Positions 6,176 to 63,191 of a stretch of 64,000 bases of DNA are shown here, one piece after another. Each line of letters starts with the position of its first letter. Within the stretch, counting starts at the first letter, position 1. The notes beneath the pieces were generated by a model. It was not told where the DNA came from and searched no databases. It saw only the letters and a program-made list of their open reading frames with translations. Position numbers and translations under genes: made by a program. The stretch lies in assembly GCA_001897425.1 (NCBI GenBank), contig MKSW01000002.1, positions 1 through 64,000 of the forward strand. Direction: 5' to 3'. The stretch is from Actinobacteria bacterium 69-20 (GTDB lineage Bacteria; Actinomycetota; Actinomycetes; Mycobacteriales; Nakamurellaceae).

Positions 6176-6209
6176 GCCCGCAAGCCTAGGCGAGGCGCGG
6201 TACGGCGCG

Positions 6210-7007: not shown

Positions 7008-7086
7008 GATCTTCGCATCAGCGCTTCCCTCTCCGTGTCACAGTCGCGTCGACCGGCGGCGTGGCGCGTCGTGAGAAGCTATCCGG

Positions 7087-45251: not shown

Positions 45252-45387
45252 GTCGTCCCTTTCGTCGTTCTCATAGTTCTGTTGTCGCAGTTCCGTTGTC
45301 GAAACCGACGGGTGCCGACGGCGGGCTGTTCGTTCTGCTTCAGGCGGCGCTCGGCTGATGATCCGCACCCGATCGATGCTGTGCTGC

Positions 45388-47229: not shown

Positions 47230-48116
47230 ACCTTCACCCCCCTGATGCGGCCGAGCAGTCCCTGCGGGCGCAGGACGAGTACTGCCGCGATCGCGGCGAA
47301 GATGAAGCCCTGGGTGAGCCCGACGACGCTGGCCGGCAACGCGGCGCGCAGGGCCACTTCGACGGCGCCCAGCGCGAAACCGCCGATGACGGCGCCGCCG
47401 AGACTGCCCAGGCCGCCCACGACCACGGCGACGAACGCCGACAGCATCGGCATCAACCCCATGTGCGGATTGATGGATCCGCCCGTACGGGCCATGGTGA
47501 GCAGCCCGGCCAACCCGGCCAGTAGGCCGGAGGCGGCGAACGCCGCAACGACCACCCGGTTGATCCGCACGCCCACCAGGCGCGCGCCCACAGCATCCTC
47601 GGCGGTGGCCCGCATCGCCAGGCCAGCACCGGTTCGCTTGAGCACGTACAGCCCCACCAACAGGGCGATCGCGGTCACGCTGATCGTGACGATCTGGTAG
47701 CGCGGCATCACCAGGGCGCCGACGCTCCACGACCCCATCAGCCAGTCCCACTGCGGCACCGTCTTCGAACGGGCCGAGATCAGCATGACGATGAGCGCCT
47801 GGATGATCAGGCTCACACCGAATGACGTGAGCAGGCTGGTCGTCTCGCTGGCACTCCGCACGGGCCGGAAGGCGACCCGTTCCATCACGAGGGCTGCGAC
47901 GATCGACGCCGCCACTCCGGCGACGGCGCCGACCGCCCAGGGCAGCCCCAGGGCGGCGCTGCCGAGCGCGGCGTAGCAGCAGATGGTGATCAGTTCGCCG
48001 TGCGCGAAGTTCGTCAGACCGAAGATCGTGAACACGATCGCCAGGCCCAGGGCGAGCAGCGCGTACGTGGCACCGAGGCTGAGCGCGTTGAGCGCCTGCT
48101 GCAAGAACACGATCAT
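47226..48116 (-). CDS. livH: Branched-chain-type ABC transporter permease LivH
   Basis: A 296-residue permease with about eight membrane segments. Typical LivH features are ALSLGATYALLALGLAIVFTIFGLTNFAHGE at the start and the cytoplasmic loop RATAEDAVGARLVGVRINRVV. It pairs with the LivM half of the next gene to form the membrane pore. ATG at 48116 overlaps the livF stop (ATGA). Longer upstream readings lie inside livF. Confidence 0.94.
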   Translation of the reverse strand: MIVFLQQALNALSLGATYALLALGLAIVFTIFGLTNFAHGELITICCYAALGSAALGLPWAVGAVAGVAASIVAALVMERVAFRPVRSASETTSLLTSFGVSLIIQALIVMLISARSKTVPQWDWLMGSWSVGALVMPRYQIVTISVTAIALLVGLYVLKRTGAGLAMRATAEDAVGARLVGVRINRVVVAAFAASGLLAGLAGLLTMARTGGSINPHMGLMPMLSAFVAVVVGGLGSLGGAVIGGFALGAVEVALRAALPASVVGLTQGFIFAAIAAVLVLRPQGLLGRIRGVKV

Positions 48117-48856
48117 GCGATTCGCTCGCTTCCGGTTCCATGCGCCGCGCCACTGCCGCCGAGGTAGGCATCGGTGAGCCCGGCGGGTCCACCGATCTCG
48201 GCCGCGGTGCCGGACGCGACGACAGAACCGCTGCGCATCACATACGTCCGATCGGCGACATCCATGGCGCGTGTCGCGTTCTGATCGACCAGGACGATGG
48301 TCAGCCCCGTCGCACTCAGGTCGCGAACCACGTCGAAGACGAGCTCCACCATCATCGGCGCCAGGCCTAGAGTGGGCTCGTCGAGCAGTAGCACGCGTGG
48401 CCTTGCCATCAGCGACCGGGCGATAGCGAGCTGTTGGGCTTCGCCGCCGGACAGCGTGCCGGCGGCCTGCTCCCGGCGTTCGCCGAGGATTGGAAATCGC
48501 TCCAGCATGCGCTCGAGATCCGCCGCAGCACCCGGTCGGTCGCGCCGGAAGCTCGCGCCGAGCACCAGGTTCTCCCTGACGGTGAGGCCGGCGTGGATGC
48601 GTCGTCCCTCGGGGGTGAGCACCAGGCCGTGCCGGATGACACGTTCGGCCGGCCATCCGGTGATGTCCACGCCGTCCAGCACGATTCGACCGGCTGTCGG
48701 CCGCAGCAGACCTGCTACGGCCGACAGCGTGGTGGTCTTGCCGGCTCCGTTCGGCCCGAGCAGGGCAACCGTCTCGCCGCGGTCGACGCTCCAAGAGACA
48801 TCGCGCACCGCCACGATCGGCCCGTATCGGACCGTCAGACCCTCGATCGACAGCAT
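48113..48856 (-). CDS. livF: Branched-chain-type ABC transporter ATPase LivF
   Basis: A 247-residue ATPase. Walker A is GPNGAGKTT, the signature is [16 protein letters not shown], and Walker B is VLLLDEPTLGLAP. The usual LivF segment VLTPEGRRIHAGLTVRENLVLG is present. With the LivG domain of the fused gene it supplies the two ATP-binding sites. The ATG at 48856 is 8 bases from the binding-protein stop. Confidence 0.95.
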   Translation of the reverse strand: MLSIEGLTVRYGPIVAVRDVSWSVDRGETVALLGPNGAGKTTTLSAVAGLLRPTAGRIVLDGVDITGWPAERVIRHGLVLTPEGRRIHAGLTVRENLVLGASFRRDRPGAAADLERMLERFPILGERREQAAGTLSGGEAQQLAIARSLMARPRVLLLDEPTLGLAPMMVELVFDVVRDLSATGLTIVLVDQNATRAMDVADRTYVMRSGSVVASGTAAEIGGPAGLTDAYLGGSGAAHGTGSERIA

Positions 48857-48864
48857 GGGGTGAA

Positions 48865-50040
48865 TTACGGGGTCGGGATGTAGGACGGCACGAAGGAGTC
48901 CTTGTACACGAACTTGCCGCCCTCCACGGCGCCGATGGTCACCGGCTTGAGCGGAATGCCGGTGGTGCCCTGGTAGGTCACCGCACCCGTCATCGTCGGC
49001 ACATCCTTGAGCTGTTTGAGCGCGTCCGTGATCGCCTTCGCATCGTTGCTGCCCGCCTTCTCGACAGCGGCCGCGATGATCTGCGCGATCGTCACGCCGA
49101 GCGCACCGAGTGCGGGACCGTCGCTGATGTCTTTGTTGGACTTTCCTGGCCCGTCCAGGAACGCCGCATAATCGCTGCCCGGGGTCGGGAAGACGTGCGT
49201 CGAGAAGACAGTGCCCACCAGGGCATCACCGCCTGCTTCGAGCAGACCGGCGGTGTCGAAGCCGTCGCCGCCGGCCACCGGGGTTTCGACGCCGGCGCGG
49301 CGCAGCGCGCGGATGAAGCTCGGCGTGTCCGGCGGGAACATCGTCGTGTAGATGACATCGGGGCGCGGATTCATCGCGGCGATCTTGGTGACCTGCGCCG
49401 AGAAGTCCGTCTGCCCGATAGAGAAGGTGACATCGCCGAGCACCTTTCCGCCGCCGTGGGTGAAGGTGTCGGCGAAGAACTTCGGCGTGTTCGAGGTGTA
49501 CGTCATGTCCGGGCTGCTCACGGTGACGGCCGTCTTCTTGCCGTTCTTGAGCAGGTATTCGGCGACCCCGGCGGCCTGCACGTTGTCACCGAACGCGGCC
49601 AGGAATACCGAAGCGTTCCCGCCGATGGCGGTGTACTCGGGCTGCGTAGAGGCACCCGCGATCACCGGAACTCCGGAGCTACCGGCAACCTCGATGACGC
49701 CGGTCGCCATCCCGGGGAAGGCCGGTCCGATCAGGATGTCCGCACCCGCGTCGACGAGTTCCTGGGCGACGGTCCCACCGGAGGCCGAATCGCTCTTCAT
49801 GTCCTTCGCCTGGACGTCGAAGGTGTAGCCCGCTACCCCGCCGGCGGCGTTGATCTTGTCGATCTGGTACTTGAGGCCGGCCAGCAGCGGCACGTCGCCG
49901 ATCGCGGCGTCGCCGGTCAAGCCGAGCGCACCGCCGATCGTGACGACCTTGCTGTCGGACTTGGATGATCCGCCGGAACAACCGGCGAGCGCGGTGGCGG
50001 CCACCGCGGTGGCCGCCACGACTCGAATCCACGATTTCAC
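48865..50040 (-). CDS. ABC transporter substrate-binding lipoprotein (Liv family)
   Basis: A 391-residue exported binding protein. The N-terminus MKSWIRVVAATAVAATALAGCSG is a lipoprotein signal with lipobox LAGC, so Cys21-23 is lipidated. The mature part has the two-lobe type I periplasmic-binding fold (IGGALGLTGDAAIGDVPLLAGLKYQIDKINAAGG). GTG at 50040 with GGGAGAAG upstream is chosen; ATG at 50055 is an alternative. The family binds amino acids, amides, urea or amines; the cluster suggests an amine or amino alcohol. A hairpin separates it from the upstream ligase gene. Confidence 0.92.
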   Translation of the reverse strand: MKSWIRVVAATAVAATALAGCSGGSSKSDSKVVTIGGALGLTGDAAIGDVPLLAGLKYQIDKINAAGGVAGYTFDVQAKDMKSDSASGGTVAQELVDAGADILIGPAFPGMATGVIEVAGSSGVPVIAGASTQPEYTAIGGNASVFLAAFGDNVQAAGVAEYLLKNGKKTAVTVSSPDMTYTSNTPKFFADTFTHGGGKVLGDVTFSIGQTDFSAQVTKIAAMNPRPDVIYTTMFPPDTPSFIRALRRAGVETPVAGGDGFDTAGLLEAGGDALVGTVFSTHVFPTPGSDYAAFLDGPGKSNKDISDGPALGALGVTIAQIIAAAVEKAGSNDAKAITDALKQLKDVPTMTGAVTYQGTTGIPLKPVTIGAVEGGKFVYKDSFVPSYIPTP

Positions 50041-50094
50041 GATCGCTTCTCCCATTTCTGTGAGGCAGGTGCAGTTGTCGGTGGAGCAGTGCGG

Positions 50095-50123
50095 TCGGCG
50101 GATCCGGATCGCGGATCCGCCGA
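50095..50123. terminator. 12-base perfect hairpin after the ligase gene
   Basis: TCGGCGGATCCG (50095-50106) and CGGATCCGCCGA (50112-50123) form a perfect 12-base stem with a five-base loop. On the minus strand it follows the stop of the glutamine-synthetase-like gene by six bases and precedes the binding-protein gene. There is no T run. It probably lowers read-through or protects the 3' end, tuning enzyme versus transporter amounts. Confidence 0.6.
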
Positions 50124-50128
50124 AGGAC

Positions 50129-51496
50129 CTAGATGAACTCGAAGTAGCGGGCCTTCTCCCAGTCAGTGACCGCATGGGAGTAGACCTTGGCCTCCCAGAG
50201 GGCGGCGAGGACGTACTGCTCGACGACATCGGCGCCGAGGGCGTCCAGGGCGAACGGGCTGGCCGACAGGAGCCGGGCCGATTCGTCGAGTGTCGTCGGG
50301 AAGCGCTCGATGGCGCTGCGGTCGGCATCCAGCCGGTAAGCGTCACCGCCATGCATGCCGGGTGGCTCGAGCCCCTCGTCGATACCGGCCGAGGCCGATG
50401 CGAGCAGGGCGGCGATGGCGAGGTACGGGTTCACGTCCGCGCCGGGCACTCGCCACTCGGCGCGCACCGACCCCGGGTGTTCACCGAGGATGCGACAGGA
50501 CACCGTCCGGTTGTCGTACCCCCAGGTGGCCCCGTGGCCGGCGAACTCCTCGGAGTTCGTGCGCCGATAGGAATTGATCGTCGGCGCGTAGAACGTCATG
50601 AAAGCCGGTGCGTGCTGCAGGATTCCGGCGACGGCCCCACGCAATGACCTGGACACGAAATGGTCTGCGGCGGCGTCATAGAAGATCGGTGAGCCGCCGG
50701 TGTCCGTCATGGACAGGTGAATGTGACAGGACGATCCGACCTGATCGGCGACCGGTTTCGGCATGAACGTGGCCGACATCCCCGCTCTGGCAGCGCAATC
50801 GCGCACCGCGAGCTTGAAAAGGACGTGCCGGTCGGCCATGTCCATGGCGTCGCCGTAGGTGAGGTTGATCTCCCACTGCCCGAGGCCCCACTCCCCCTGG
50901 CTGAGTTCGACGTCCAGGCCGGAGCGGTCCAACGCGTCGCGCAGCGGCTGGAAGAAATGCTCCCAACCGTTGACCTGCTGCACGGTGTAGTCGGCGTGCA
51001 TCAGGGTGGACGGCGTCATGGTGTGGTAGCCACCGGTGCGCAATGCGTCGTAGTTCTCGCGATACAGGAAGAACTCGAGTTCCGTTCCCACAGCAGCGGT
51101 TCGACCGGCGGCGGCCATCGCGTCGAGTTGGCGGCGCAGGATGGTGCGCGGCGCGACGGCGACCAACTCGCCGGTCTCCGGCTCGTACAAATCGGCCATG
51201 ACGACCGCGGTGCGATCAAGCCATGCCGCCGGTCGCAAGGTGGCCATGTCCGGGCGCATCAGGATGTCCCGCCAGCCGGTGTGCCACCCCGCGTACGGCA
51301 CTTCGAGGCCGATGTCCTGGTTGATGTCCCAGCCGAAGACGCAGGTGGAGATGGCGATCCCGGGCTCGGCGAGTTCCTGCAGTTTGCGCGGTGTGAGCCG
51401 CTTGCCGAGCAATCGGCCGGACATGTCCGGCGCCGTCACGATGACGGTGTCGTAGCCGCCGGAATGAAGCTCGTCCGGCGTGAGCTGCGCCGTCAT
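50129..51496 (-). CDS. Glutamine synthetase-like gamma-glutamyl-amine ligase
   Basis: A 455-residue GS-I fold ligase. Metal and ATP-site segments VGTELEFFLY, GQWEINLTYGDAMDMADRHVLFK, GSSCHIHLSM and NSYRRTNSEEFAGHGATWGYDNRTVSCRI are present, but the adenylylation site of true glutamine synthetase (NLYDLPPEE) is missing, as in PuuA and the GlnA3/GlnA4 gamma-glutamylpolyamine/ethanolamine ligases of Streptomyces. It likely joins glutamate to an amine using ATP. ATG at 51496 overlaps the SDR stop (ATGA). Confidence 0.9.
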   Translation of the reverse strand: MTAQLTPDELHSGGYDTVIVTAPDMSGRLLGKRLTPRKLQELAEPGIAISTCVFGWDINQDIGLEVPYAGWHTGWRDILMRPDMATLRPAAWLDRTAVVMADLYEPETGELVAVAPRTILRRQLDAMAAAGRTAAVGTELEFFLYRENYDALRTGGYHTMTPSTLMHADYTVQQVNGWEHFFQPLRDALDRSGLDVELSQGEWGLGQWEINLTYGDAMDMADRHVLFKLAVRDCAARAGMSATFMPKPVADQVGSSCHIHLSMTDTGGSPIFYDAAADHFVSRSLRGAVAGILQHAPAFMTFYAPTINSYRRTNSEEFAGHGATWGYDNRTVSCRILGEHPGSVRAEWRVPGADVNPYLAIAALLASASAGIDEGLEPPGMHGGDAYRLDADRSAIERFPTTLDESARLLSASPFALDALGADVVEQYVLAALWEAKVYSHAVTDWEKARYFEFI

Positions 51497-52257
51497 CGGG
51501 TCAACCACCCACCGTCGACGGGAAGCTCGATGCCGGTGATGTAGCTGGCGTCGTCGGAGAGCAGGAATGACGCCGCCGCGGCGATGTCGGCAGGTTCGCC
51601 GACGCGCGGGATCAGCAGCCGTGTCTTCATGAACTCCATCGCCTCCGGCCCAGTGATGTCGCCACCCGTGAATCGGGTATTGATAGGCCCGGGGGCGATC
51701 GCGTTGACACGGGTGCCTTGAGCCGAGAGCTCCACGGCGAGGGCCTTGGTCAGCATCGGGATGCCACCCTTGGACGCGTTGTAATGCGGTTGGCAATGCG
51801 GCCCGCTCGCTACGACCACCGATGCCTCGACGGTGGACAGATTGACCACAGCGCCGCCGCCGGCCGCCTTCAGGTGCGGGGCTGCGGCCTGGGTGACCAG
51901 GAACGGCCCGGTCAGGTTCACGCCCAGGACGAAATCCCACTCCTGCTGGGTGACATCGGCCAGGCCCGACATGGTGACGACACCGGCATTGTTGACGAGG
52001 TAGGTGAGCGAGCCAAGCATGTCGACCGCCGCCGATACGGCCTCGTGCACGACATCACGGTTGGCGACGTCGCAGTACACGAAGCTGGCCCGCCCGCCCG
52101 CGCTGGTGATCATCTCGATCGTCTCGGCGGCACCGGCCTCGTTGACGTCCAGGACCGCGATCGCGGCGCCTTCCGAGGCGAGGCGGGTGGCGATCGCTCG
52201 GCCGATACCGGATCCCGCACCGGTGACGATGGCCGTACGGCCCTGATGGTCCCTCAC
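51493..52257 (-). CDS. Short-chain dehydrogenase/reductase (SDR)
   Basis: A 254-residue classical SDR. The cofactor motif is TGAGSGIGRAIA, NNAG is at LVNNAGVV, and the catalytic Ser and YxxxK are in VNLSTVEASVVV and HYNASKGG. LDVN after the second strand favours NAD. GTG at 52257 is preceded by GGAGGA. Its place directly before the ligase gene, with no amine oxidase nearby, suggests oxidation of an alcohol group on the gamma-glutamylated substrate or on the free amino alcohol. Confidence 0.92.
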   Translation of the reverse strand: MRDHQGRTAIVTGAGSGIGRAIATRLASEGAAIAVLDVNEAGAAETIEMITSAGGRASFVYCDVANRDVVHEAVSAAVDMLGSLTYLVNNAGVVTMSGLADVTQQEWDFVLGVNLTGPFLVTQAAAPHLKAAGGGAVVNLSTVEASVVVASGPHCQPHYNASKGGIPMLTKALAVELSAQGTRVNAIAPGPINTRFTGGDITGPEAMEFMKTRLLIPRVGEPADIAAAASFLLSDDASYITGIELPVDGGWLTR

Positions 52258-52356
52258 AAGAATGTCCTCCAGCTAGTGCCGATCAGGTCGTCGGCTCGGT
52301 GATTGAAAGCGGTGGTCAACAGCGTTGGCTGCCAAGCGTCGCGGTACCCCCCCACG

Positions 52357-53082
52357 TCACTGCCTGGGTTCCTCGGCCGTCATCGGCTGGCCAGGTATCA
52401 GGATCTCGCGCAGCACGTCCCGACTGTGTTCGATGTGCCTGACCATCAGTCGCGCGGCCCGGGCACCGTCGCGGGCCTCGATCGCCTTCAGCAGCCCGGC
52501 GTGCTCGCGCCGCATATCGACCACCGACGGCAGGTAGTTCAAATTGTCCGTGGGAGCGAAAAGCTCGCCTCGCGCATCACGAATCGACTCCTGGAGCCGC
52601 GGACTGCCTGACGCGGCAGCGATCTCGGCGTGAAAAGCCGAATCGTGCTTTCGGAACTCCTGACGGGAAATGCCCTGCCGCAACGCGGTGACGGCGGCAC
52701 GCATCGCCACGATCTGCGCATCGGTGCGGCGTTCCGCGGCCAGCTTTGCGGCACGAGACTCCACCGCGATGCGGAACTCGGCCAAGTCGTCCCACTCCCC
52801 GATGGTCGCTCGCATCCGGCCCGCCCACAGCTCCGGGTTCGATCCGAGGGCTGAGACCGAGGTTCCGCCGTGCGCCCCGCGTTGCGTCGTCACATAGTTC
52901 AGTGCTTCGAGCGCAGCGAGCGCCTCGCGCACCGCCATGCGAGACACCCCTAGTTGTGCCGCAAGCTCGCGCTGTGACGGGAGCTTGGAGCCTTCCGGCA
53001 ACTCACCGCTGTGGATCAAGCGGCGCAGCAGCGCGGCAACTTCTTCGCCCGTCCTGGTCGAGGGGGGCAAGTTGAAGTTCAT
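52357..53082 (-). CDS. FadR-subfamily GntR transcriptional regulator
   Basis: A 241-residue regulator with an N-terminal GntR winged helix (GSKLPSQRELAAQLGVSRMAVREALAALEALNYV) and a C-terminal FCD ligand-binding domain (from about 85) with metal-binding His residues (HDSAFHAEIA and RREHAGLLKAI). ATG at 53082 is used; a TTG/GTG start at 53118/53106 is possible. First gene of the amine cluster and likely its repressor. The upstream 53083-53243 stretch contains a direct repeat of GGACC and a CGTCATA word at 53147. Confidence 0.91.
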   Translation of the reverse strand: MNFNLPPSTRTGEEVAALLRRLIHSGELPEGSKLPSQRELAAQLGVSRMAVREALAALEALNYVTTQRGAHGGTSVSALGSNPELWAGRMRATIGEWDDLAEFRIAVESRAAKLAAERRTDAQIVAMRAAVTALRQGISRQEFRKHDSAFHAEIAAASGSPRLQESIRDARGELFAPTDNLNYLPSVVDMRREHAGLLKAIEARDGARAARLMVRHIEHSRDVLREILIPGQPMTAEEPRQ

Positions 53083-53243
53083 TGGACCGACGATAGGACC
53101 ATTCACGAGAGGCGTCAAGACTCGCGCGCCCTGCTCCCGGGGATGTCGTCATATGTGCGGCGACACGCGCCGGCAGCGGTTCGACTGCCCGATTCGAAAG
53201 AGGCAGGAACGCCACCCGACCGGATCGGGTTGCGCAGGGTAAG

Positions 53244-53296: not shown

Positions 53297-54634
53297 TCAA
53301 ATTCCGACGGCGGCGTGCGCCTCCTCTGCGTCGGCGCGGGTGCCGACGTGCGCGGGTCGTCTGGCAAGTTCGATCGCAAGGTAGACGACGAGGCCGACGA
53401 CCATGCCGACGATCGCATCGGAGAGCGATGGCAGCGTTTCGTGGACAACGAGCCCAACGACCGCACCGACACCCCAGCCGATGAACGCGGTCGGCCGGAC
53501 GCGGCGTTCGACCCGGCCGACGAGCCGCCTGCGCAGGATGACCTGATCGGCTATCAAGACCGCACCGAGCGGCGGAACGATCACGCCGAGCAGGGCGAGC
53601 CAATTGACGTAGAAGCTCCACACGCCGGCAATCGCTGCAGCGAGCCCGATCGCGCCGAGAATCAGCGTGAGCAGGCGCATCTTGGAGCGCACGATATGCG
53701 ACCAACTGAGCGCCCCGTTGTAAAGGCAGTGGGTACAGACGGAGCCGAGGTTCACGACGACGAAGATGACCACGAAGATGTCCAGGACGATGTTCCCCGG
53801 CCCGGTGAGGATCGGGGTGAAGTCGCCGCCCGCGGTGCCGGGGTCCGCGATGGCACCTGCGGCCACCAGGAACCCGCCGGACAATTGCGCGATCAAGCTG
53901 GCGATCGGAAAGGCGGAGGCGGTTGCTATCACGCCTTGCTTTCCGTTCTTGGACCAGCGAGTGAAATCGGCCGCCATGGTGCCCGAATCGAGGAACGTGG
54001 CCATGATCGCGGTGACAGCGGCACCGAAGGTCATGGTGCCGCCTGCGATGCCGGCGTAGCCGGTGACGCCGCCGAAGTCGTGGTGTCCGGCTGCAATGGC
54101 GACGGCGATGATCACCGCGATGATGAATAGTGGGGCGGCGAGTGCTCCGGTCCAGGACAATGCCTTGATACCAAGGAATGTCGCGGCGATGAAGATGATG
54201 CCGGCGATGGCGGCGACCAAGGCTTCGTTCCAGCCGAATGAGTTGTGCAGGGCGGACCCGGTGGCGCCGGTGTTGAACGCGAACCAACCGACGACGACGG
54301 TGGACAGGAATCCGGACGCGACGATATAGCCCACGGATCCGAACGTTTCAGTGGTTTGCAGGGCGAAGTTCTTGCCGGTCTGGCCGGCGCGATAGCTGAG
54401 CAGGCCAACGAAAACGAACATGATCAGGTTCGCCAGCAGGATCGCGGCGAAGCCTTCTTTGAAGCCGAGCATGGCGACGACGATGCCGCCGGGCACGGCG
54501 TTGGTGAGGATCATCGGGAAGCCGAACCAGACAGCGGCGACCGTCATGAGGGATTTGCGGTGTTCCGGCGGTACCGGGCTGTGCTCGAATTCCGACTCCA
54601 GCTTGCTGCCGGTGTCGGACTGGGTTGTTTCCAT
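53297..54634 (-). CDS. NCS1 family permease (cytosine/allantoin type)
   Basis: A 445-residue membrane protein with about 12 helices of the nucleobase-cation-symport-1 family. The N-terminus METTQSDTGSKLESEFEHSPVPPEHRKS is followed by FPMILTNAVPGGIVVAMLGFKEGFAAIL, typical of CodB-like members; the allantoin permease AllP belongs to the same family. As last gene of the operon it probably brings in the ureide or nucleobase from which carbamoyl groups are released. ATG at 54634; 81 bases follow the carbamate kinase gene. Base composition is lower in GC than genes to the left. Confidence 0.9.
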   Translation of the reverse strand: METTQSDTGSKLESEFEHSPVPPEHRKSLMTVAAVWFGFPMILTNAVPGGIVVAMLGFKEGFAAILLANLIMFVFVGLLSYRAGQTGKNFALQTTETFGSVGYIVASGFLSTVVVGWFAFNTGATGSALHNSFGWNEALVAAIAGIIFIAATFLGIKALSWTGALAAPLFIIAVIIAVAIAAGHHDFGGVTGYAGIAGGTMTFGAAVTAIMATFLDSGTMAADFTRWSKNGKQGVIATASAFPIASLIAQLSGGFLVAAGAIADPGTAGGDFTPILTGPGNIVLDIFVVIFVVVNLGSVCTHCLYNGALSWSHIVRSKMRLLTLILGAIGLAAAIAGVWSFYVNWLALLGVIVPPLGAVLIADQVILRRRLVGRVERRVRPTAFIGWGVGAVVGLVVHETLPSLSDAIVGMVVGLVVYLAIELARRPAHVGTRADAEEAHAAVGI

Positions 54635-54715
54635 CGCAGGCCTTTCGGGATCAGGAGAGCTTGGTTGGGTTCGCGGCCGGTGCCGATGCGCCGGATTGCC
54701 CCCGCATGAGAAGGG

Positions 54716-55648
54716 TCAGGCGTAGACGATGCCGTCGGCGACGTCGGCACGGATCTCGGTGCCGATCTTTCTGGCGAGCAGTTCGTCGAGTCGGTCCAGC
54801 GGGCCGATCAATGCCCGGCCGCCGGCTTTGGCAACCCGAATGGCGGCGTCGACCTTCGGTTTCATGGATCCTTCGGCGAACGGCAGATGTTGAATTCCGT
54901 CGACCGAGGCGGTGAGGATGTCGCGCTGCTGTGGCGTTCCCCAGTCCTGGCTGACGAAGTCCGCGTCGGTGAGGATGACCAACGTATCCGCGCCGATCTC
55001 CTCGGCGAGAGCCGCGCTGGCGAGATCCTTGTCGATAACGGCCTGGACGCCCGATTGGCGTCCGGCCTGCGAGTCGGCCTTCACGGGCACACCCCCGCCG
55101 CCGACGCAGACAACGAGGTACCCGTTGTCGAGGAGCAGCCGGATCGCGTCGGCTTGAATGATCCGGATCGGTTGCGGGGAAGGTACTACGCGACGGAAGT
55201 AGTTGCCGTCCTTGCCGATCGTCCATCGGTAGTCGGCAGCAACCTCGGCGACGTCCTCGGCGCTGTATTGCGGGCCGATGAACTTTGTCGGGTGCTCGAA
55301 TGCCGGGTCGTGGTCGTCGACGACGGTCGTGGTCAGCAGGTTCGCGATCTTGCGCTCGCCGCGCAGGATGTTGCTGAGCTCCTGTTGCACGACGTACCCG
55401 ATCATTCCTTGGGTTTCGGCGCCGAGAATATCGAGCGGGTAGGCCGCCACCTCCTGGTAGGTGAGGTTTTGCAGCGCCAGCAGGCCGACCTGTGGGCCGT
55501 TTCCATGGGTGACGACCAATTCGTGCTCTCTCGCCAGCGTGGCCAGGCTATGACAGGCGGAGCGCACGTTCGCCCGCAGCAGGTCGGCCGTCATCGGCTC
55601 GCCCCGCCGCGACAACGCATTCCCGCCCAGTGCAACGACGATTCTCAT
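54716..55648 (-). CDS. arcC: Carbamate kinase
   Basis: A 310-residue amino-acid-kinase-fold enzyme that makes ATP from carbamoyl phosphate and ADP. It starts MRIVVALGGNALSRRGEPM; further family segments are VVTHGNGPQVGLLALQN, QGMIGYVVQQEL, CVGGGGVPV, DKDLASAALAEEIGADTLVILTDAD and GSMKPKVDAAIRVA. Its neighbours are the FdrA/DUF1116/DUF2877 proteins rather than arginine deiminase genes, so its role is that of AllK: harvesting carbamoyl phosphate from oxamate-type carbamoyltransfer. Starts 58 bases after the DUF1116 stop. Confidence 0.95.
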   Translation of the reverse strand: MRIVVALGGNALSRRGEPMTADLLRANVRSACHSLATLAREHELVVTHGNGPQVGLLALQNLTYQEVAAYPLDILGAETQGMIGYVVQQELSNILRGERKIANLLTTTVVDDHDPAFEHPTKFIGPQYSAEDVAEVAADYRWTIGKDGNYFRRVVPSPQPIRIIQADAIRLLLDNGYLVVCVGGGGVPVKADSQAGRQSGVQAVIDKDLASAALAEEIGADTLVILTDADFVSQDWGTPQQRDILTASVDGIQHLPFAEGSMKPKVDAAIRVAKAGGRALIGPLDRLDELLARKIGTEIRADVADGIVYA

Positions 55649-55706
55649 GGCTACCCCTGTTCGTGGTGTTCGGTGGCGCGATCGGCCCAGCCGGCTGTGA
55701 CGCGGC

Positions 55707-57131
55707 TCAGCAGTACTTGGCGGCGAAGGCGAGGGTGGCGGCGTGAAACGCCTCGATCGGCGGGTGCGTGAGCCCGGCGCCGATCATTCCGATGCCGGCG
55801 TCCTTGTGCGCGATTGCGGTGTTGATCAATGGCAGAATGCCGGTTTCCTCGACCTTGCGGATGTCGATGCCTGTAGCGGTGCCACGGAAGGCGAGGATGG
55901 GGATCGTCAGGTTCGGGTTCGTGGTCGTGGTGATCTCCAGCATCTGTCTGGAGTAATCGATGGCCTCTTCCACGGTCCCGCCGACGAGCGGCACGATCGC
56001 TGGTGCGCAAGCCATCGCGAAGCCGCCGATGCCATAGGTCTCGGTGATCGCCGAGTCGCCGATGTCGCGGCCGCGGTCCTCTTTCGTGAACCCCGGGAAC
56101 AGTGGCCCCTCGATGTATTGCGCCGGCCCGGTGAACCAACGGCTCTGGCCGAGCCCGGAGATTCGGATACCGAATTCGACTCCGTTGCGGCACATCGTGG
56201 TGACCACGGTCGAGTAGTCGATATCGTGCGCCGAGTCGACCGCGGCTTTCGCGCATGCCATCCAGGTCGGCCCGGAGAAGTAGTCGGAGGACGCGACGAA
56301 ATTGAACACATCCTGCTTGTCCTTCGTCGAGAAGTCCGAGTCGAGGATGTGCGGGGCAAGCGCCTGGATCAGCAGCGTGGTGCCAGCATTGTTGCGGTTG
56401 TGCGCCTCGTCGCCCATTTGCAGCGCCTGCGCGAGCATCATGCGGAGGTCGATCTCCTTCGCGGAGACCATCGCGTCACGAAGGATCGGGCCGAAGACGT
56501 CCCGCATCCACTTCAGGCGGTCGATCACGCTCTGGTCGTTCGCGCCCATGCGCAGAATCTTGGCGAGTTGCTCAGAGAGGTTCGTGTAGGCGTAGTTGCC
56601 GTAGGGGCGGTTTTCCACGACGTGCATGAACATCGATGCAGAGGTCACACCGGCCATCGAGCCTACGGTTTGGTGCTCGTGGCACGGAGAAAAGGTGATC
56701 TCCCCGGAGGCCGCGAGATCGTAGGCCTCGTCGACGTTATCGGCCAGGCCCTCGAAGACGAGCGCCCCGGTCACCGCGCCGACCATGGTGCCGGCCATGT
56801 CCTTGAACTCGATCGGCGGGCCTGCGTGCAGGATCGTCTTCCTCGTCATGCCGGGCACTACGTCGATGGCGGGTGCGTATCCGACCAGCACTGGCTGCGA
56901 GGTGATGATCCGCTCGACCGCCTCGGCGTTCGCATCCGCGATCTTTACTGCGAGGTCCGAACGTGACAGAGCGGTCAGCACGGCGATCACGTCGGGCCGA
57001 CCGCCGCCGGGCGGTGTCCAATCCAGGTGCGTAACAGGGGCGCCCTGCGCCTTGATGTCGTCGGCGAACATTTCGGCGCCGACGTTGATGGCTGACAATG
57101 GCTGACTGAACAGGTCCACGACGGTGCTCAT
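55707..57131 (-). CDS. DUF1116 protein, YlbE/AllG-like
   Basis: A 474-residue member of DUF1116 (E. coli YlbE, now AllG). Recognisable are SAINVGAEMFADDIKAQGAPVTHLDWTPPGGG at the start, FSPCHEHQTVGSMAGVTSASMFM and RNNAGTTLLIQALAPHIL. AllF (FdrA), AllG and AllH are together needed for oxamate carbamoyltransferase activity: oxalurate plus phosphate gives oxamate and carbamoyl phosphate. ATG at 57131 overlaps the FdrA stop (ATGA). Confidence 0.92.
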   Translation of the reverse strand: MSTVVDLFSQPLSAINVGAEMFADDIKAQGAPVTHLDWTPPGGGRPDVIAVLTALSRSDLAVKIADANAEAVERIITSQPVLVGYAPAIDVVPGMTRKTILHAGPPIEFKDMAGTMVGAVTGALVFEGLADNVDEAYDLAASGEITFSPCHEHQTVGSMAGVTSASMFMHVVENRPYGNYAYTNLSEQLAKILRMGANDQSVIDRLKWMRDVFGPILRDAMVSAKEIDLRMMLAQALQMGDEAHNRNNAGTTLLIQALAPHILDSDFSTKDKQDVFNFVASSDYFSGPTWMACAKAAVDSAHDIDYSTVVTTMCRNGVEFGIRISGLGQSRWFTGPAQYIEGPLFPGFTKEDRGRDIGDSAITETYGIGGFAMACAPAIVPLVGGTVEEAIDYSRQMLEITTTTNPNLTIPILAFRGTATGIDIRKVEETGILPLINTAIAHKDAGIGMIGAGLTHPPIEAFHAATLAFAAKYC

Positions 57132-58687
57132 GCGTTTTCTCCCTTGCTCACGAACTCGCGGGCAAGAAGCCCTGTATTCGTCGATGACGACGCCCACGTG
57201 ACACCCGCGTCGGTGAGCTTCTTCACCTGTGCGTCGAAACCCTGTTCGTCGCGATCGGTCCCGAGCACATAACCGAGGACCTCCAGGTGCCGGCCAGCCT
57301 TTGCGGCGGCGTCCTTGGCTTCGACGATGGTCGGGAGCATCACGCCGACGGGATCCGGGTTGGATCCATAGCCGAGCACGAAGTCCATGACGATCACACC
57401 GACCTCGGGATCGGCGGCCTCTGCCTTGAACCGTTCGATGCGGTTCGACGGGTCGATCATCGGGTGCGGTTTGCCGTTCGTGAACTCGTCCTCGCCGAAG
57501 TCCAAGAATGTGTGTGCGCGCGACGGATCGGATCCCTTCAACCTCTTTGCCGGATCCTTTTGAATGTTCGAATACACGTCGCCGAACTTCTCCAGCGCGA
57601 GGAACATGGTCTCATCGCACAGGGTGCCGCCGCAGAAAAGACCGCGGATATATCGCTGTTCCGGCGTAAGTTTCGCGCGAACCTCCTCGATGAGCGGCCG
57701 ATTGATCTCGTGCAGGTCCAGCTCGACTTCCCGTGCGCCGCCGGCGATGACAGCAGCGAGGGCCGCCGGCTTTGTGCGGTTGAAGAGTTGCACGCCGCGA
57801 ACCTCGGCCGCCTTCATCAGCTCCGGCCCAGCGCCGAGGAAGCAAGCGACAGCGGGCTTTTCAGATGCGGCGAGCCGGTCGAGGACCTTCTCGGCGACGG
57901 CCACGGCCGGGGGCTTGGAAATGACGGCGATCACGTCGGTACCGGGGTCGGTGTCCAGCGCGGCGATCCCGTCGAGCATCATGATTGCGCCGACCTCCGC
58001 CGACAGGTCCCGCCCGCCGGTGCCGATCAGCTCCGAGACGCCCGCGCCGAAGTCGTGGATGCGCACGGACATCTCCTGCGCGCCGGTACCCGAGGCAGCG
58101 ACGATTCCGATCCGTCCGCGGCGCACTTTGTTCGCGAAGCACAGCGATACCCCGCCGATGATCGCTGTGCCACAGTCCGGTCCCATCACCATGAGGCCGG
58201 CATCGTGTGCACGGCGTTTGAGGGCGATCTCGTCGGCAAGCGGCACGTTGTCCGAGAACAACATCACGTTCAACCCGGCGTCGAGCGCCTTCCCCGCCTC
58301 GTGCGCCGCATACTGACCGTTGACGGAAATGACGGCGATATTCGCATCGGGTCGCGCCGCAGCGGCCGCGGCGATGGTGTGGTGGACGATTTCGCTGGCT
58401 TGGCCGGTCGGTTCGCGGTCGAGCAGGGCGATCAGACCGTTCATCGCGGCGTCGGCGCCCGCTTCGTCGCCGCTCGTGACGACGATGAGGATCAAGTCTC
58501 CCGGTGTCGCTTCGGCGATGTCGTCGGTTATCAGGCCTTGGTTGGCTAACACGTCCTTGTTCATCGGAGTAGCCATGGCCGCCACCGCGTTCACGACACC
58601 GTCGAGCGCGGCCGCCTTCGTCGAGATCGCCATCAGCGATACCGAATCGATGTACTTGTTCTTCTTGATCAGTGATCGGGTTGGCAT
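57128..58687 (-). CDS. fdrA: FdrA-like (AllF) acyl-CoA synthetase-fold protein
   Basis: A 519-residue protein of the succinyl-CoA-synthetase-like FdrA family: N-terminal MPTRSLIKKNKYIDSVSLMAIST, CoA-binding-like domain with VMGPDCGTAIIGGVSLCFANKVRRGRIGIVAASGTGAQEMS, and ligase-like domain with GLFCGGTLCDETM. Part of the oxamate carbamoyltransferase complex. The ATG at 58687 lies 19 bases inside the end of the DUF2877 gene, so the operon is tightly packed. One 60-base stretch (57541-57600) is only 52% GC. Confidence 0.93.
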   Translation of the reverse strand: MPTRSLIKKNKYIDSVSLMAISTKAAALDGVVNAVAAMATPMNKDVLANQGLITDDIAEATPGDLILIVVTSGDEAGADAAMNGLIALLDREPTGQASEIVHHTIAAAAAARPDANIAVISVNGQYAAHEAGKALDAGLNVMLFSDNVPLADEIALKRRAHDAGLMVMGPDCGTAIIGGVSLCFANKVRRGRIGIVAASGTGAQEMSVRIHDFGAGVSELIGTGGRDLSAEVGAIMMLDGIAALDTDPGTDVIAVISKPPAVAVAEKVLDRLAASEKPAVACFLGAGPELMKAAEVRGVQLFNRTKPAALAAVIAGGAREVELDLHEINRPLIEEVRAKLTPEQRYIRGLFCGGTLCDETMFLALEKFGDVYSNIQKDPAKRLKGSDPSRAHTFLDFGEDEFTNGKPHPMIDPSNRIERFKAEAADPEVGVIVMDFVLGYGSNPDPVGVMLPTIVEAKDAAAKAGRHLEVLGYVLGTDRDEQGFDAQVKKLTDAGVTWASSSTNTGLLAREFVSKGENA

Positions 58688-59577
58688 TCTGCTCCTCGCA
58701 TTCCCATGAACATGTGCACAGCGGCCAGCAGCCCTTCGGCCTGGTCCGTGCCCGACGTGTGGCCGATCGCGATCAGATCGGCCATCAGCGGCACGATCTC
58801 GGTGACGTCGCCGACCCCGCGGAGTGCGGCCAGCACCGCTGCCAGCGGTTGCGCGGCGCGTCCGCGGCATGCTGCACGCAACATGGTGAGCGACAGATCA
58901 TGTGTCGCACCGTCTGTCGCGACAGCGCCGACCGCTTCCGGAACGATGTCGAGTGGGCCGCCCAGCTGGGTAGCCGCGAAGACGAGTCCGGTCAGCACGT
59001 CGTCGCCCGACGGCGTCAGCCCGACCCCCAGTCCGACGATGCTGGCCGTCGCCGCCCGGACCTTCGCCGCATCCTGCCGGCGAACGGCTCGACCGATCTC
59101 GGCGACCGCCGAGGCGATCCGGGCCGACGTGGCAGCCCCGATCAGGTCCGCCCGGCCTTCGACGCGAATCCCGTAGCGCCGAAGGGCTCCGTCAGCGACC
59201 GAAACTCGGTGCGTATCGAGCGGCCCATGGGAGCGACTCGGATCCCACGGCGCTGCGGCACCCAGGTCGACTGTGAGACAGGCTGCTATCACGACGGTCT
59301 CGTCACTCACGGCCACCGGCTTGCCGGCCGACAGGCCATAGCGATGAAGACTCGTGACGTCCAGGCGGATCGTGGCGGGCGCGTCCGGAGCGGTTTTCGC
59401 CGCCATCGCCCACAGCGATCCGTCGATAGAGCGAACGTTGACCGCCTTGTCGAAGACCGAGTGGATGCGCCCCGCAAGACTCTGCGCGCCACGGTGCAAC
59501 AGCTCCGAGTCCGCTGAGATCGCTCGCATCGACCATGTCGGGTTCTCCCGATCTCGTCGGATCGCGAGCATCGTCAT
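58669..59577 (-). CDS. DUF2877 protein, AllH-like
   Basis: A 302-residue DUF2877 member, the family of E. coli YlbF/AllH. The conserved signature is VGLGVGLTPSGDDVLTGLVFAA; other family segments are IGHTSGTDQAEGLLAAVHMF. Third subunit of the oxamate carbamoyltransferase set. ATG at 59577 is used; ATG at 59571 and 59529 are alternatives. It follows the ankyrin gene by 15 bases and overlaps fdrA by 19. Confidence 0.87.
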   Translation of the reverse strand: MTMLAIRRDRENPTWSMRAISADSELLHRGAQSLAGRIHSVFDKAVNVRSIDGSLWAMAAKTAPDAPATIRLDVTSLHRYGLSAGKPVAVSDETVVIAACLTVDLGAAAPWDPSRSHGPLDTHRVSVADGALRRYGIRVEGRADLIGAATSARIASAVAEIGRAVRRQDAAKVRAATASIVGLGVGLTPSGDDVLTGLVFAATQLGGPLDIVPEAVGAVATDGATHDLSLTMLRAACRGRAAQPLAAVLAALRGVGDVTEIVPLMADLIAIGHTSGTDQAEGLLAAVHMFMGMRGAECQPDH

Positions 59578-59592
59578 CGCCGGTCGGGATCC

Positions 59593-60207
59593 CTACGCCC
59601 GCGCTACCGCGTCGGCGAGAATGCCGGCGATCGCGCCGAAGTCCCTCTGCTCGGCGTGTTCCAGCGGTGAGACACCCCACTGGTCCACCATGGTCGGGTC
59701 GGCACCAGCCGCCAAGAGCAGTCGGACTATCTCCTGCTGGGCATCGCCGCCGTCACGCAGGATGATCGCCTCGAGCAGTGGAGTCCAGCCGCACACGTTG
59801 GTGTGGTTAACGTTGCAGTCGGTCTGCTCAGCCAGGTATCGGACTACCTCGACGTGGCCCTTTTCCGCGGGCGGGTGGATCACCGATCCGTCGAACCGCG
59901 TGCGTCGATCAAGATCGGCGCCCGCCTCCACCATGAGCTTGACCAGATCGAGATTCCCCGAGATCGACCCCCACAAGAGAGGGTTGAGGCGCACCTGGTC
60001 CTGACTGTCGAGGTCTGCACCGGCGTCTACGAGGACGCGCACCACGTCCAGTCGACCCGCCTTCGCTGCGATCAGGATCGCTGTGCGACCCACAGTGTCG
60101 GTGGCATTAAGGTCGATTCCCCGGCTCAGGGCAGCCAGGATCTCCTCAGCTTGAGCGGTCGCCACAATGGTTGGCCACTCCGTCGGTGACTGCCGGGGTT
60201 TGCGCAT
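59593..60207 (-). CDS. Ankyrin repeat protein heading the carbamoyl operon
   Basis: A 204-residue cytoplasmic protein consisting of about five to six ankyrin repeats (for example NATDTVGRTAILIAAKAGRLDVVRVLVDAGADLDS and TNVCGWTPLLEAIILRDGG). No signal peptide or enzyme motif. It is the first gene of the operon, immediately before the DUF2877 gene. Ankyrin proteins mediate protein-protein contacts, so it may scaffold the three-part carbamoyltransferase; this is inference from position. GAAGGA precedes the ATG at 60207. Confidence 0.88.
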   Translation of the reverse strand: MRKPRQSPTEWPTIVATAQAEEILAALSRGIDLNATDTVGRTAILIAAKAGRLDVVRVLVDAGADLDSQDQVRLNPLLWGSISGNLDLVKLMVEAGADLDRRTRFDGSVIHPPAEKGHVEVVRYLAEQTDCNVNHTNVCGWTPLLEAIILRDGGDAQQEIVRLLLAAGADPTMVDQWGVSPLEHAEQRDFGAIAGILADAVARA

Positions 60208-60228: not shown

Positions 60229-60276
60229 CTGTCAAGCGCTTCTATGGCATACCGTACCGCTATTTTGGCATACCAA
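60229..60276 (-). promoter_or_regulatory. Operon promoter with two GntR-type operator sites
   Basis: TTGGCATACCAA (60265-60276) is a near-palindrome, and TATGGCATACCGTA (60243-60256) shares its GGCATACC core. The site centres are 21 bases apart, two helical turns, suiting two bound dimers. On the minus strand TTGTTG then 17 bases then TACGGT gives a promoter overlapping both sites. The FCD-GntR gene next door is the probable regulator. The remainder of the 60208-60420 spacer shows no gene. Confidence 0.65.
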
Positions 60277-60420: not shown

Positions 60421-61101
60421 CTAGGGACGCGTGCTTTGAAATAGCTGCGCGAGCGCGACTCGCTTCGATGTCCGCACGTGTACCGATGACTCACGGCGCG
60501 CGCGGCGCACGTCTCGCGCGGCGATCGCGTCCGCGATGGCCGCGTGCTCCGTCTGCATCAGCACGTCACGGTCATTCTGGCGAAGGAGCCAGTGCAGACG
60601 GCTGTTCAGCGGGCGCAGCATGTCGATCAGGACGTCGTTATGGGCCATCGCCGAAAGCGCATCGTGGAAGCGCGTGTTAGCGGAATCGAACTCCGCCTTG
60701 CTCTGCCTATCCAGCGCCGCCTGACCCTCAGCCACGAGCGCCAGCAATCCCTCGACCTCACGGTCGGTCGACTTGCGTACCGCAAGTTCACAGACGTAAG
60801 GCTCCAGCGCCTCGCGAATTTCGAAGATCTGGTCAAGGATGTGCGAATCGATGTCCGACACCACCATGCCGCTGCGCGGCACGTGAGTGACGAACCCTTC
60901 CGTCGCCAACGCCCGCAACGCCTCCCGCACCGGTACCCGCGACATACCGATCTCGACGGCGAGATCCCGCTCCTTCAAGCGCGCCCCCGGGCGCAACTCA
61001 CCCGAGACGATTCGTTCCCGAATATGTTCCAGCGCGCCATCCACCAGGGATGGCGGCGCTGAACCCACCCCCGCATGGCCATCGACAGCCGAACGCGTCA
61101 C
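60421..61101 (-). CDS. GntR family regulator with FCD domain
   Basis: A 226-residue regulator: winged helix (LVDGALEHIRERIVSGELRPGARLKERDLAVEIGMSRVPVREALRALATEGFV) followed by a FCD ligand-binding domain with likely metal-binding His/Asp residues (SANTRFHDALSAMAHN and EHAAIADAIAARD). GTG at 61101 is used; an earlier in-frame start at 61176 would overlap the S9 peptidase gene. It is transcribed toward the ankyrin operon across 213 bases holding two operator-like sites, so it probably controls that operon in response to a ureide or its product. Confidence 0.9.
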   Translation of the reverse strand: MTRSAVDGHAGVGSAPPSLVDGALEHIRERIVSGELRPGARLKERDLAVEIGMSRVPVREALRALATEGFVTHVPRSGMVVSDIDSHILDQIFEIREALEPYVCELAVRKSTDREVEGLLALVAEGQAALDRQSKAEFDSANTRFHDALSAMAHNDVLIDMLRPLNSRLHWLLRQNDRDVLMQTEHAAIADAIAARDVRRARRESSVHVRTSKRVALAQLFQSTRP

Positions 61102-61148
61102 GCTCAAACAGTAACGTGCAGACACATCGGGAGGGACCGGCAAGACCG

Positions 61149-63191
61149 TCAGGCGACGGGCAGGTACCGCGCCCACCAGTCGAGGATCGCCTCGAAGCGC
61201 TGCTGCCGGTGCTTCGGCCGGCCGGAGCGGGAGAGCTCGTGGCCCTCCCCTGGGAAGAGCAGCATCTCCGTCTCGTGCCCGCGCAGTTTGAGCGCGACGT
61301 ACATCCGCTGCGCCTGTTCCAACGGGCAGCGCCAGTCCTGCTCGGAATGGACGATGAGCAGCGGAATGTCGATCCGATCGGCGTGTTCTAGCGGCGAGAG
61401 CTCACGCTGCCGGTCCGGGTCCGAGCCGACGTACGCGTCCGCGAAGAAGAAGCCGATGTCGCTGGACCCGGCGAACGAGTCCCACGCGTTCACGGCCCGC
61501 TCGCTGATGCCGGCGACGAACCGGCCCGGCGCGTGCGAAGCCAGCCAGCTCGTCATGAAGCCCCCGTAGGAACCGCCCATGACGCCGACCCGGCCTGCGT
61601 CGAGATCGTCGCGGGCGAGCGCCGCGTCGAGCAGCGCCAGCACATCGTCCACGTCGACCGTGCCGAGCCGGCCGACGATCGCCCGGCCGTGCTCCTCGCC
61701 GTATCCGGCCGAGCCGCGCGGGTTGGGCAGCACCACCGCGTATCCGTTGGTCGCATACATCTGCGCTTCGTCGGAAACGCTTCGGGTGTAAGCGGAATGC
61801 GGTCCACCGTGGACGGACAGCAGCACCGGATGCGGGCCGGTGAAGCCGCCGCCCGGCGGCAGGACGAGCCATCCGTGCACGGGGTACCCGTCGGGCGCGG
61901 TCCCTGTCACTTCAACGGCCTCCGCCAGGCCCGCTTCCCGCAGCGGCGCGGAGATGTCGCTCAGCCGCACTTCGGGCGACGGGTCGCCGGCGGCGGCCGC
62001 CCGCTTCAGGTCCGCAAGGTCGCCCATGACGATGTCCCCGCAGCTGGCCGCATCCGCGATCACCGCGGCGATTCGCGGCCCGTTCACGGTGAACGCTTTC
62101 ACCACGCGCGGCCCGCCCAAGACCACGGCCATCTCGTGCAGCGGCACGTCTCGCCCGTCCGCGGGCACTGCCCGAACGGCGACCGTGCCCCGGTCGTCCA
62201 CCGCGACCAGGACGAGGCCGTCGACTACGACGGGGTCACCGGCGTCGGCATCGACATGGACCGTCGCCGCGTCGGTCAGCCGGTGCGGATCGCCGCCCGC
62301 GAGCGGAACCGCCCACAGACCCGGTGTGCGACCGGCGAAGTCGTTTTCGTCGAAGGCAGCCCCGACGTAGTAGACCCAGCCGTCGTGGACGATCGGCGCG
62401 GTGGCGTCACCGTGCGCGGCCGCGATGACGCGGGCAGACGCCGGCTCGCCGGCGACCGGCACGGCCACGATCTCCGCCTGCTGCGAGTCGATCGCGACCG
62501 GACGCGTGTACACGATCTCCGCGCCGTCGGGGGTGAACGCCGGTCGTCCGATAGACCCGGCTTCGTCGGTGATCCTTCGCGGCGTCGAGTCCACAGCCGC
62601 GACTCCGGACTGGTCGACCAGCTCGAGGACGAAGATCTGCTCCGGTCGATCGAGGACGAAGCCCTTGCCGTCCGTCCGGTATGACATCCGGTTGATCCGC
62701 CGGGCGGGTTCGGCCTCCGGGACCGGTCCGTGATCGTGGTGGCTCGGCGCACCGCAGTCGACCGTGGGCCGTTGCGGTTCCGCTGCGCCGGTAGTAGCGG
62801 CAACGCCGTACCGGCCCTCTTCCGGGACTGCCGCCAGATAGGCAATGAACCGCCCGTCCGGTGAGAACGTGACAGATGACACGCCCAGCGGGTGATCCAC
62901 CAGCTGAAACGGCTCCCCGCCGTGACGCGGCATGGCGAACGGCTGAGCGGGCGCGCCGGCTGCGGCACGCAGGAACACGACGACGGAGCCGTTCGGCGAC
63001 AACACCGGCGCCGAGTCGAGCGGACCGCGCGTGAAGTCCACCGTGCTCGCCCCGGCGCGGAGCAGTTGCAGGGCGCCCCGGTAGCAGTCGCCATCGACAT
63101 CGGGCGTGGACAGAGCGGCGATCACATCACCCGTCTCGCCGAGGGCAGGTCGCCCGTAGGTGCGAAAGAGACGCAGGTCTGCGGGCTTCAT
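61149..63191 (-). CDS. S9 family prolyl oligopeptidase
   Basis: A 680-residue peptidase with an N-terminal seven-blade propeller-type domain (to about 420) and a C-terminal alpha/beta-hydrolase domain. The catalytic triad is visible: Ser541 in GGSYGGF, Asp619 in EQDWRC and His651 in EGHELS. Such enzymes cut short peptides, often after proline or with acylaminoacyl specificity. No signal peptide is seen, so it is cytoplasmic. It lies 24 bases after the TerC gene and 47 before the GntR gene; a link to either is not evident. Confidence 0.93.
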   Translation of the reverse strand: MKPADLRLFRTYGRPALGETGDVIAALSTPDVDGDCYRGALQLLRAGASTVDFTRGPLDSAPVLSPNGSVVVFLRAAAGAPAQPFAMPRHGGEPFQLVDHPLGVSSVTFSPDGRFIAYLAAVPEEGRYGVAATTGAAEPQRPTVDCGAPSHHDHGPVPEAEPARRINRMSYRTDGKGFVLDRPEQIFVLELVDQSGVAAVDSTPRRITDEAGSIGRPAFTPDGAEIVYTRPVAIDSQQAEIVAVPVAGEPASARVIAAAHGDATAPIVHDGWVYYVGAAFDENDFAGRTPGLWAVPLAGGDPHRLTDAATVHVDADAGDPVVVDGLVLVAVDDRGTVAVRAVPADGRDVPLHEMAVVLGGPRVVKAFTVNGPRIAAVIADAASCGDIVMGDLADLKRAAAAGDPSPEVRLSDISAPLREAGLAEAVEVTGTAPDGYPVHGWLVLPPGGGFTGPHPVLLSVHGGPHSAYTRSVSDEAQMYATNGYAVVLPNPRGSAGYGEEHGRAIVGRLGTVDVDDVLALLDAALARDDLDAGRVGVMGGSYGGFMTSWLASHAPGRFVAGISERAVNAWDSFAGSSDIGFFFADAYVGSDPDRQRELSPLEHADRIDIPLLIVHSEQDWRCPLEQAQRMYVALKLRGHETEMLLFPGEGHELSRSGRPKHRQQRFEAILDWWARYLPVA

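Follow-up and report, generated by a model that had tools for sequence, protein, structure and literature searches.

An ankyrin gene accompanies a Yah-type FdrA/DUF1116/DUF2877 operon in an actinobacterium

Introduction

What does an ankyrin protein do at the head of an operon for carbamoyltransferase-like enzymes, and which compound does that operon serve? These questions are raised by a 64,000-nucleotide stretch of DNA from Actinobacteria bacterium 69-20 (contig MKSW01000002.1, positions 1 to 64,000), here called the window, from a genome of 4.48 Mb in 43 contigs. Positions 53297-60207 of its minus strand, on which all of the window features described below lie, encode in order of transcription an ankyrin repeat protein, AllH (DUF2877), FdrA/AllF, AllG (DUF1116), a carbamate kinase, and an NCS1 permease. 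In Escherichia coli, AllF, AllG, and AllH convert oxalurate to oxamate and carbamoyl phosphate, from which AllK makes ATP (PMC11326118, PMC9843812). A preliminary description of the window had viewed the cluster as an actinobacterial operon of this kind with a previously undescribed ankyrin association. We conclude instead, with a probability of roughly 0.6, that it is the actinobacterial ortholog of the E. coli yahDEFG-yahI operon, a ureide-scavenging operon with an accessory ankyrin, probably regulated by an upstream GntR protein.

Results

The order ankyrin-DUF2877-FdrA-DUF1116-carbamate kinase is identical in the window and in E. coli K-12 (b0318-b0321 and b0323), where yahD (ankyrin), yahE (DUF2877), yahF (FdrA-like), yahG (DUF1116), yahH, yahI (carbamate kinase-like), and yahJ (amidohydrolase, b0324) follow one another. 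The ankyrin-led arrangement is thus not new, since it is already annotated as yahD-yahE-yahF-yahG. E. coli K-12 also has a separate, allantoin-linked operon, fdrA-ylbE-ylbF-ybcF, encoding AllF, AllG, AllH, and AllK. The DUF1116 subunit of the window (positions 55707-57131; PF06545, 298 bits against a cutoff of 27, E = 3.7e-89) is 70% identical to YahG versus 46% to E. coli AllG, and the FdrA-type subunit (57128-58687; NCBIfam NF004760, 469 bits against a cutoff of 433) is 59% identical to YahF versus 37% to AllF. These identities mark the operon as Yah type. In a tree of AllG proteins, the window sequence fell with YahG in an 84-row clade, the Yah clade (Shimodaira-Hasegawa-like approximate likelihood ratio test, 99), which has a long stem (0.8 changes per site); within it, the window grouped with Nakamurella and Propionibacteriaceae. 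The window ankyrin and YahD likewise shared one 22-row clade of the ankyrin tree, with support of 100/100. Only the carbamate kinase (54716-55648; NF009008, 421.6 bits, passing the curated cutoff of 361 for a catabolic carbamate kinase) is nearer to the All side, at 52% identity to AllK (YbcF) versus 40% to YahI. It is not of the YahI type, and the kinase type varies among Yah-type operons.

The window cluster is consequently not an AllFGH operon in the strict sense. It shares with E. coli allFGHK (oxamic transcarbamylase, PMC11326118) three homologous subunits and a catabolic carbamate kinase, but the latter operon differs in gene order, contains no ankyrin gene, and has allantoin genes next door. 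As the preliminary description had noted, no allantoin pathway surrounds the cluster: the window contains no match to an allantoinase model, and the best match in the complete genome falls short of the cutoff (271 of 357.9 bits).

The E. coli yah genes and the window operon also differ. In E. coli, the regulator is of the LysR type (yahB), the amidohydrolase YahJ is exported through Tat (PMC7549933 lists it as a Tat substrate), and the operon includes no permease gene. In the window, the regulator is of the GntR type, the permease belongs to NCS1, the kinase resembles AllK, and YahJ is missing. YahJ is not a core feature, because it is also absent from actinobacterial and Burkholderiales members (loci L134, L135, L151, and L210). 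The best match to YahJ elsewhere in the genome was only 23% identical and was not accepted as an ortholog. E. coli K-12 has only yahH (L120, 11770-12090) where the operon permease gene would stand, after yahG and before yahI, and K-12 may have lost its yah transporter. A literature search on yahD-yahJ returned expression lists, a Tat-substrate study, and gene lists, and no metabolic function. The DUF1116 protein with PDB entry 3CLQ is a close relative of AllG (621 bits over 412 amino acids), and its PDB listing states no function; the Enterococcus faecalis record, in which its gene neighborhood was sought, contains a single AllG, which is non-Yah.

We then asked how regularly the ankyrin gene (59593-60207; 204 amino acids, six repeats; Pfam Ank PF00023, 82 bits against a cutoff of 21) accompanies these enzymes. 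One genome per bacterial and archaeal species was scanned with an alignment of Yah-type AllG proteins, a query blind to the ankyrin. The 80 loci returned came mostly from Enterobacterales, with others from Aeromonas, Orbaceae, two Burkholderiales (Herminiimonas and Ramlibacter), and four Actinomycetota; E. coli K-12, one plasmid, and one genome of the same genus brought the Yah-clade loci to 83. In 80 of the 83, an ankyrin gene stands ahead of AllH-AllF-AllG, in the same orientation, and ends 1.7-3.2 kb before AllG (median, 2.5 kb). In the three others, the available sequence ends within about 1.5 kb upstream of AllG; the AllG of one is identical to that of an ankyrin-bearing locus. Outside the Yah clade, an ankyrin was found near 1 of 52 loci (in E. 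faecalis, 5.4 kb away); for 38 of these 52, 4 kb or more of upstream sequence was available. With one exception, the operon ankyrins fall into a single clade (100/100): in Ramlibacter, a different ankyrin, fused to tetratricopeptide repeat (TPR)-like repeats, occupies the same place and groups with free-standing ankyrins on a long branch. Given this difference in linkage and the single ankyrin clade, the ankyrin is a constant companion of the Yah clade and no actinobacterial oddity. Conservation of the ankyrin with this subtype, which the preliminary description had proposed as a check, is thereby borne out, and its picture of an actinobacterial feature is not: AllG occurs in 49 of 396 sampled actinobacterial genomes, and an ankyrin adjoins no examined AllG except that of the window.

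The operon is rare within Actinomycetota. Because only 2 of 17 genomes of the genus carry it (the source genome and one other), gain by transfer seems likely. The window ankyrin is 41% identical to E. coli YahD and 41-47% identical to YahD and a plasmid homologue over almost the full length, and a search of plasmids with the ankyrin found E. coli and Enterobacter proteins of 46-50% identity, nearly full length. One such plasmid carries ankyrin-DUF2877-FdrA-DUF1116-membrane protein-carbamate kinase.

An AlphaFold2 model of the window ankyrin has six repeats and a mean predicted local distance difference test (pLDDT) score of 92; no signal peptide was seen in the protein. The best-conserved parts are the inner helices and fingers of repeats 4 and 5 (mostly 0.88-0.98), with 0.98 in the inner helix of repeat 5 and 0.97 in the loop after it; the least conserved are the outer helices (0.54-0.82). 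This is the pattern expected of a concave binding face. We infer that the ankyrin is a dedicated accessory component of the Yah clade, which would most likely bind the enzyme or its ligand through the concave face of repeats 4 and 5. The best fold match was the ABAYE2397 ankyrin (PDB 5D66; template modeling [TM] score, 0.90; 38% identity), for which the PDB listing states no function.

Alternatively, the ankyrin might be no enzyme component at all, but a ligand-binding or protective protein that acts on a deaminase-like amidohydrolase or on the substrate and is linked to the operon through a shared pathway. N137, G140, W141, T142, E146, A147, and G153 are conserved across the family, also in homologues without an FdrA operon, which suggests that YahD-like ankyrins may share one kind of ligand or binding partner. 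Some of these unlinked homologues adjoin nucleoside deaminase genes, and in Bdellovibrio an ankyrin gives protection from exported enzymes (PMC4686830). The E. faecalis ankyrin EF0377 (PDB 3HRA; TM score, 0.87) is of the YahD family and lies, like that of the window, near FdrA/DUF1116/DUF2877 genes; unlike it, EF0377 has a lipoprotein-like signal, is about 5.4 kb from the AllG region, and accompanies an AllG outside the Yah clade. This locus (L131, 8752-17198), which unites the ankyrin with a YahJ-family amidohydrolase, PucR, an FdrA-AllG fusion, and DUF2877, is a second, separate ankyrin/FdrA association. Against this alternative, no YahJ match was obtained in the loci of the window, Propionibacteriaceae, Herminiimonas, and Ramlibacter, all of which keep the ankyrin wherever the sequence suffices, and we regard a purely ligand-binding or protective role as possible, at well under even odds. 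Expression of EF0377 rises in infection models, and E. faecalis lacking it was somewhat more virulent toward an insect host (PMC2912369), findings that fall short of defining a biochemical role. The free-standing YahD-like ankyrin genes (L123, L127, and L132, about 5.7-9.5 kb, and L122 and L124) follow genes for an ATP-binding protein, a response regulator, and a heme-binding protein in Deinococcus and Agrobacterium and precede the nucleoside deaminase genes in Paracoccus and Martelella.

Positions 60237-60274, upstream of the ankyrin gene, contain two direct repeats with GGTATGCCA, one of them within TGGTATGCCA; the two near-copies of a palindrome lie at 60245-60274, and the repeats form a probable GntR operator. 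The 9-mer GGTATGCCA has just two copies in the 64-kb window, where 0.17 would be expected. A GntR/FCD regulator gene lies next upstream, at 60421-61176 (Pfam GntR and FCD; its true start may be downstream of the GTG at 61176), with a 96% identical counterpart in L133, a second Nakamurella metagenome-assembled genome (MAG), and counterparts of 48-50% identity near the operon, upstream of the ankyrin gene, in L134 and L135. Each of these three loci has a single perfect TGGTATACCA palindrome in the equivalent position; in L134 and L135, it is flanked by the kinase and ankyrin genes, which diverge from each other. Four actinobacterial loci thus have in common a TGGTATACCA-like palindrome in front of the ankyrin gene, adjoining a GntR regulator gene. 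Because the palindromes precede the ankyrin gene and the regulator gene recurs nearby, the ankyrin gene is most likely the first gene of a regulated unit, with the GntR protein as its predicted regulator. Promoter and terminator scans gave no excess over chance.

The remaining operon genes encode the AllH/YahE-type DUF2877 subunit (58669-59577; PF11392, 75 bits against a cutoff of 25, E = 7.8e-21) and a CodB-like NCS1 nucleobase permease (53297-54634; PF02133, 64 bits against a cutoff of 23.5, E = 1.6e-17). The permease scored 181 bits with the cytosine permease (CodB) equivalog model, below the cutoff of 326, and is therefore assigned to the NCS1 family without a substrate. Profile matches and gene order confirmed the FdrA/DUF1116/DUF2877/carbamate kinase module led by an ankyrin gene, and the order, strand, and coordinates of the six genes agreed with the preliminary description, as did the 15-base gap between the ankyrin and AllH genes, the 19-base overlap of AllH with AllF, and the ATGA overlap of AllF with AllG. 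Gaps of 58 and 81 bases separate AllG from the kinase gene and the kinase gene from the permease gene, respectively. The preliminary description had overlooked the GntR gene, the palindrome copies, the second FdrA-type cluster of the genome, and the resemblance to E. coli yah. The Nakamurella MAG L133, the nearest named relative (AllG, 97%), has the same cluster at 89-98% identity, with GntR and S9-peptidase genes upstream as in the window; because of this recurrence, the cluster is neither a chance grouping nor an assembly artifact. A separate cluster on the same strand (43075-53118), comprising peptidase C26, aldehyde dehydrogenase, branched-chain-type ABC transporter, glutamine-synthetase-like, short-chain dehydrogenase/reductase, and GntR genes, resembles a polyamine-type (Puu) catabolic cluster.

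Discussion

The AllF and YahF types have the motifs MGPDCGT, ASGTG, KPP, and PHPMIDP in common, which makes phosphorolytic carbamoyl transfer the likely chemistry of the operon. In the proposed pathway, the NCS1 permease would import a nucleobase-like ureide or its precursor, the AllF-AllG-AllH complex (YahF-YahG-YahE type) would transfer the ureide's carbamoyl group to phosphate, and the carbamate kinase would turn the resulting carbamoyl phosphate into ATP, NH3, and CO2. By analogy with E. coli AllFGH for the chemistry, and with the permeases and the neighboring hydrolases of related clusters for the substrate class, the operon most likely functions as an inducible nucleobase- or ureide-scavenging operon. 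Our best guess for the substrate is a nucleobase-derived ureide, and the earlier suggestion of a substrate other than oxalurate is plausible. Enterobacterial operons add YahJ, which belongs to the same amidohydrolase group as cytosine deaminases. Most other Yah operons encode a permease without a Pfam or NCBIfam match. Its AlphaFold2 model (pLDDT, 69) best matches the UapA/UraA fold (Z, 26-27; top match, UapA with xanthine, Z = 27) and also SLC26-type transporters; we did not assign it to NCS2, as the modest-confidence model supports the fold class only.

A true oxamate carbamoyltransferase, which would phosphorolyze oxalurate made elsewhere in the manner of E. coli AllFGH-AllK, would account for the presence of all three subunit families with shared core motifs and for the AllK-like kinase. 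We nevertheless consider it unlikely. The window AllG lies in the Yah clade, apart from E. coli AllG; E. coli retains both paralogs; and no allantoinase exceeded the cutoff. A second FdrA/AllG/AllH set in the source genome (L062, 2893-10664, contig C33), which has no ankyrin and lies beside inosine-uridine nucleoside hydrolase and PucR genes, is better placed for purine catabolism and probably serves it. That the ankyrin gene is an unrelated passenger at the 5' end of the operon is highly improbable: ankyrins are modular and common, and homologues in the 396-genome actinobacterial sample are mostly away from AllG, but the same place is kept from Actinomycetota to Enterobacterales, lies downstream of a shared probable operator, and is filled by a different ankyrin in Ramlibacter.

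The reading of the operon as a Yah-type ureide-scavenging operon with an accessory ankyrin has to be held against several results that weigh the other way. No measured activity was found for any Yah-type enzyme, and carbamoyl transfer is extrapolated from paralogs that are 37-46% identical. The DUF2877 subunit is only 24% identical to YahE. The actinobacterial and Burkholderiales loci lack YahJ, and any ring opening there would need another route. Gammaproteobacteria account for about 74 of the 80 loci in the scan, and these are not independent. Finally, there are YahD-like ankyrins that have no accompanying FdrA operon, so their basic function need not depend on the enzyme. A more specific proposal, which we offer tentatively and think less likely than not to be correct, is that the Yah clade is a four-component carbamoyltransferase, made of the ankyrin and the AllF, AllG, and AllH types, for a nucleobase-derived ureide other than oxalurate, in which the ankyrin would be needed for activity or substrate selection. 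If true, this would be a new enzyme architecture common to Enterobacterales, Burkholderiales, and some Actinomycetota.

Other FdrA-DUF1116-DUF2877-kinase modules adjoin a cyanuric acid hydrolase and a xanthine permease, or BiuH-like hydrolases. On a Citrobacter plasmid (L236, 2734-10375), the cyanuric acid hydrolase AtzD and a xanthine permease accompany DUF2877-FdrA-DUF1116-carbamate kinase, an arrangement that points to a biuret-type ureide as the substrate of an FdrA complex. On atrazine plasmids (L237 [pTC1], 5986-8782; L240, 6001-8782; L239, 6001-7568), a truncated DUF1116 gene precedes atzC, and in L237 and L240 a carbamate kinase gene stands between them, which is the order yahG-yahI-yahJ. 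AtzC is 29% identical to YahJ, a hint that atzC derived from an FdrA-type ureide operon. We claim no Yah origin for the pTC1 DUF1116 fragment, because it resembles the non-Yah copy in the source genome just as closely (62%). As such modules adjoin cyanuric acid hydrolase, BiuH-like hydrolases, and AtzC, FdrA-type complexes may be a general route to carbamoyl phosphate from ureides.

The yah operon is an uncharacterized catabolic operon of the best-studied bacterium. Its ankyrin is strictly linked, across phyla and in the company of differing permeases, regulators, and kinases, to a single clade among the FdrA-type carbamoyltransferases, which were identified recently. The constant core, consisting of the ankyrin and the three subunits, can thereby be told apart from the exchangeable parts, which indicates the proteins to copurify and the substrate class to try. 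The question with which we began is sharpened accordingly: what is the job of the yah operon ankyrin, and which ureide does it serve?

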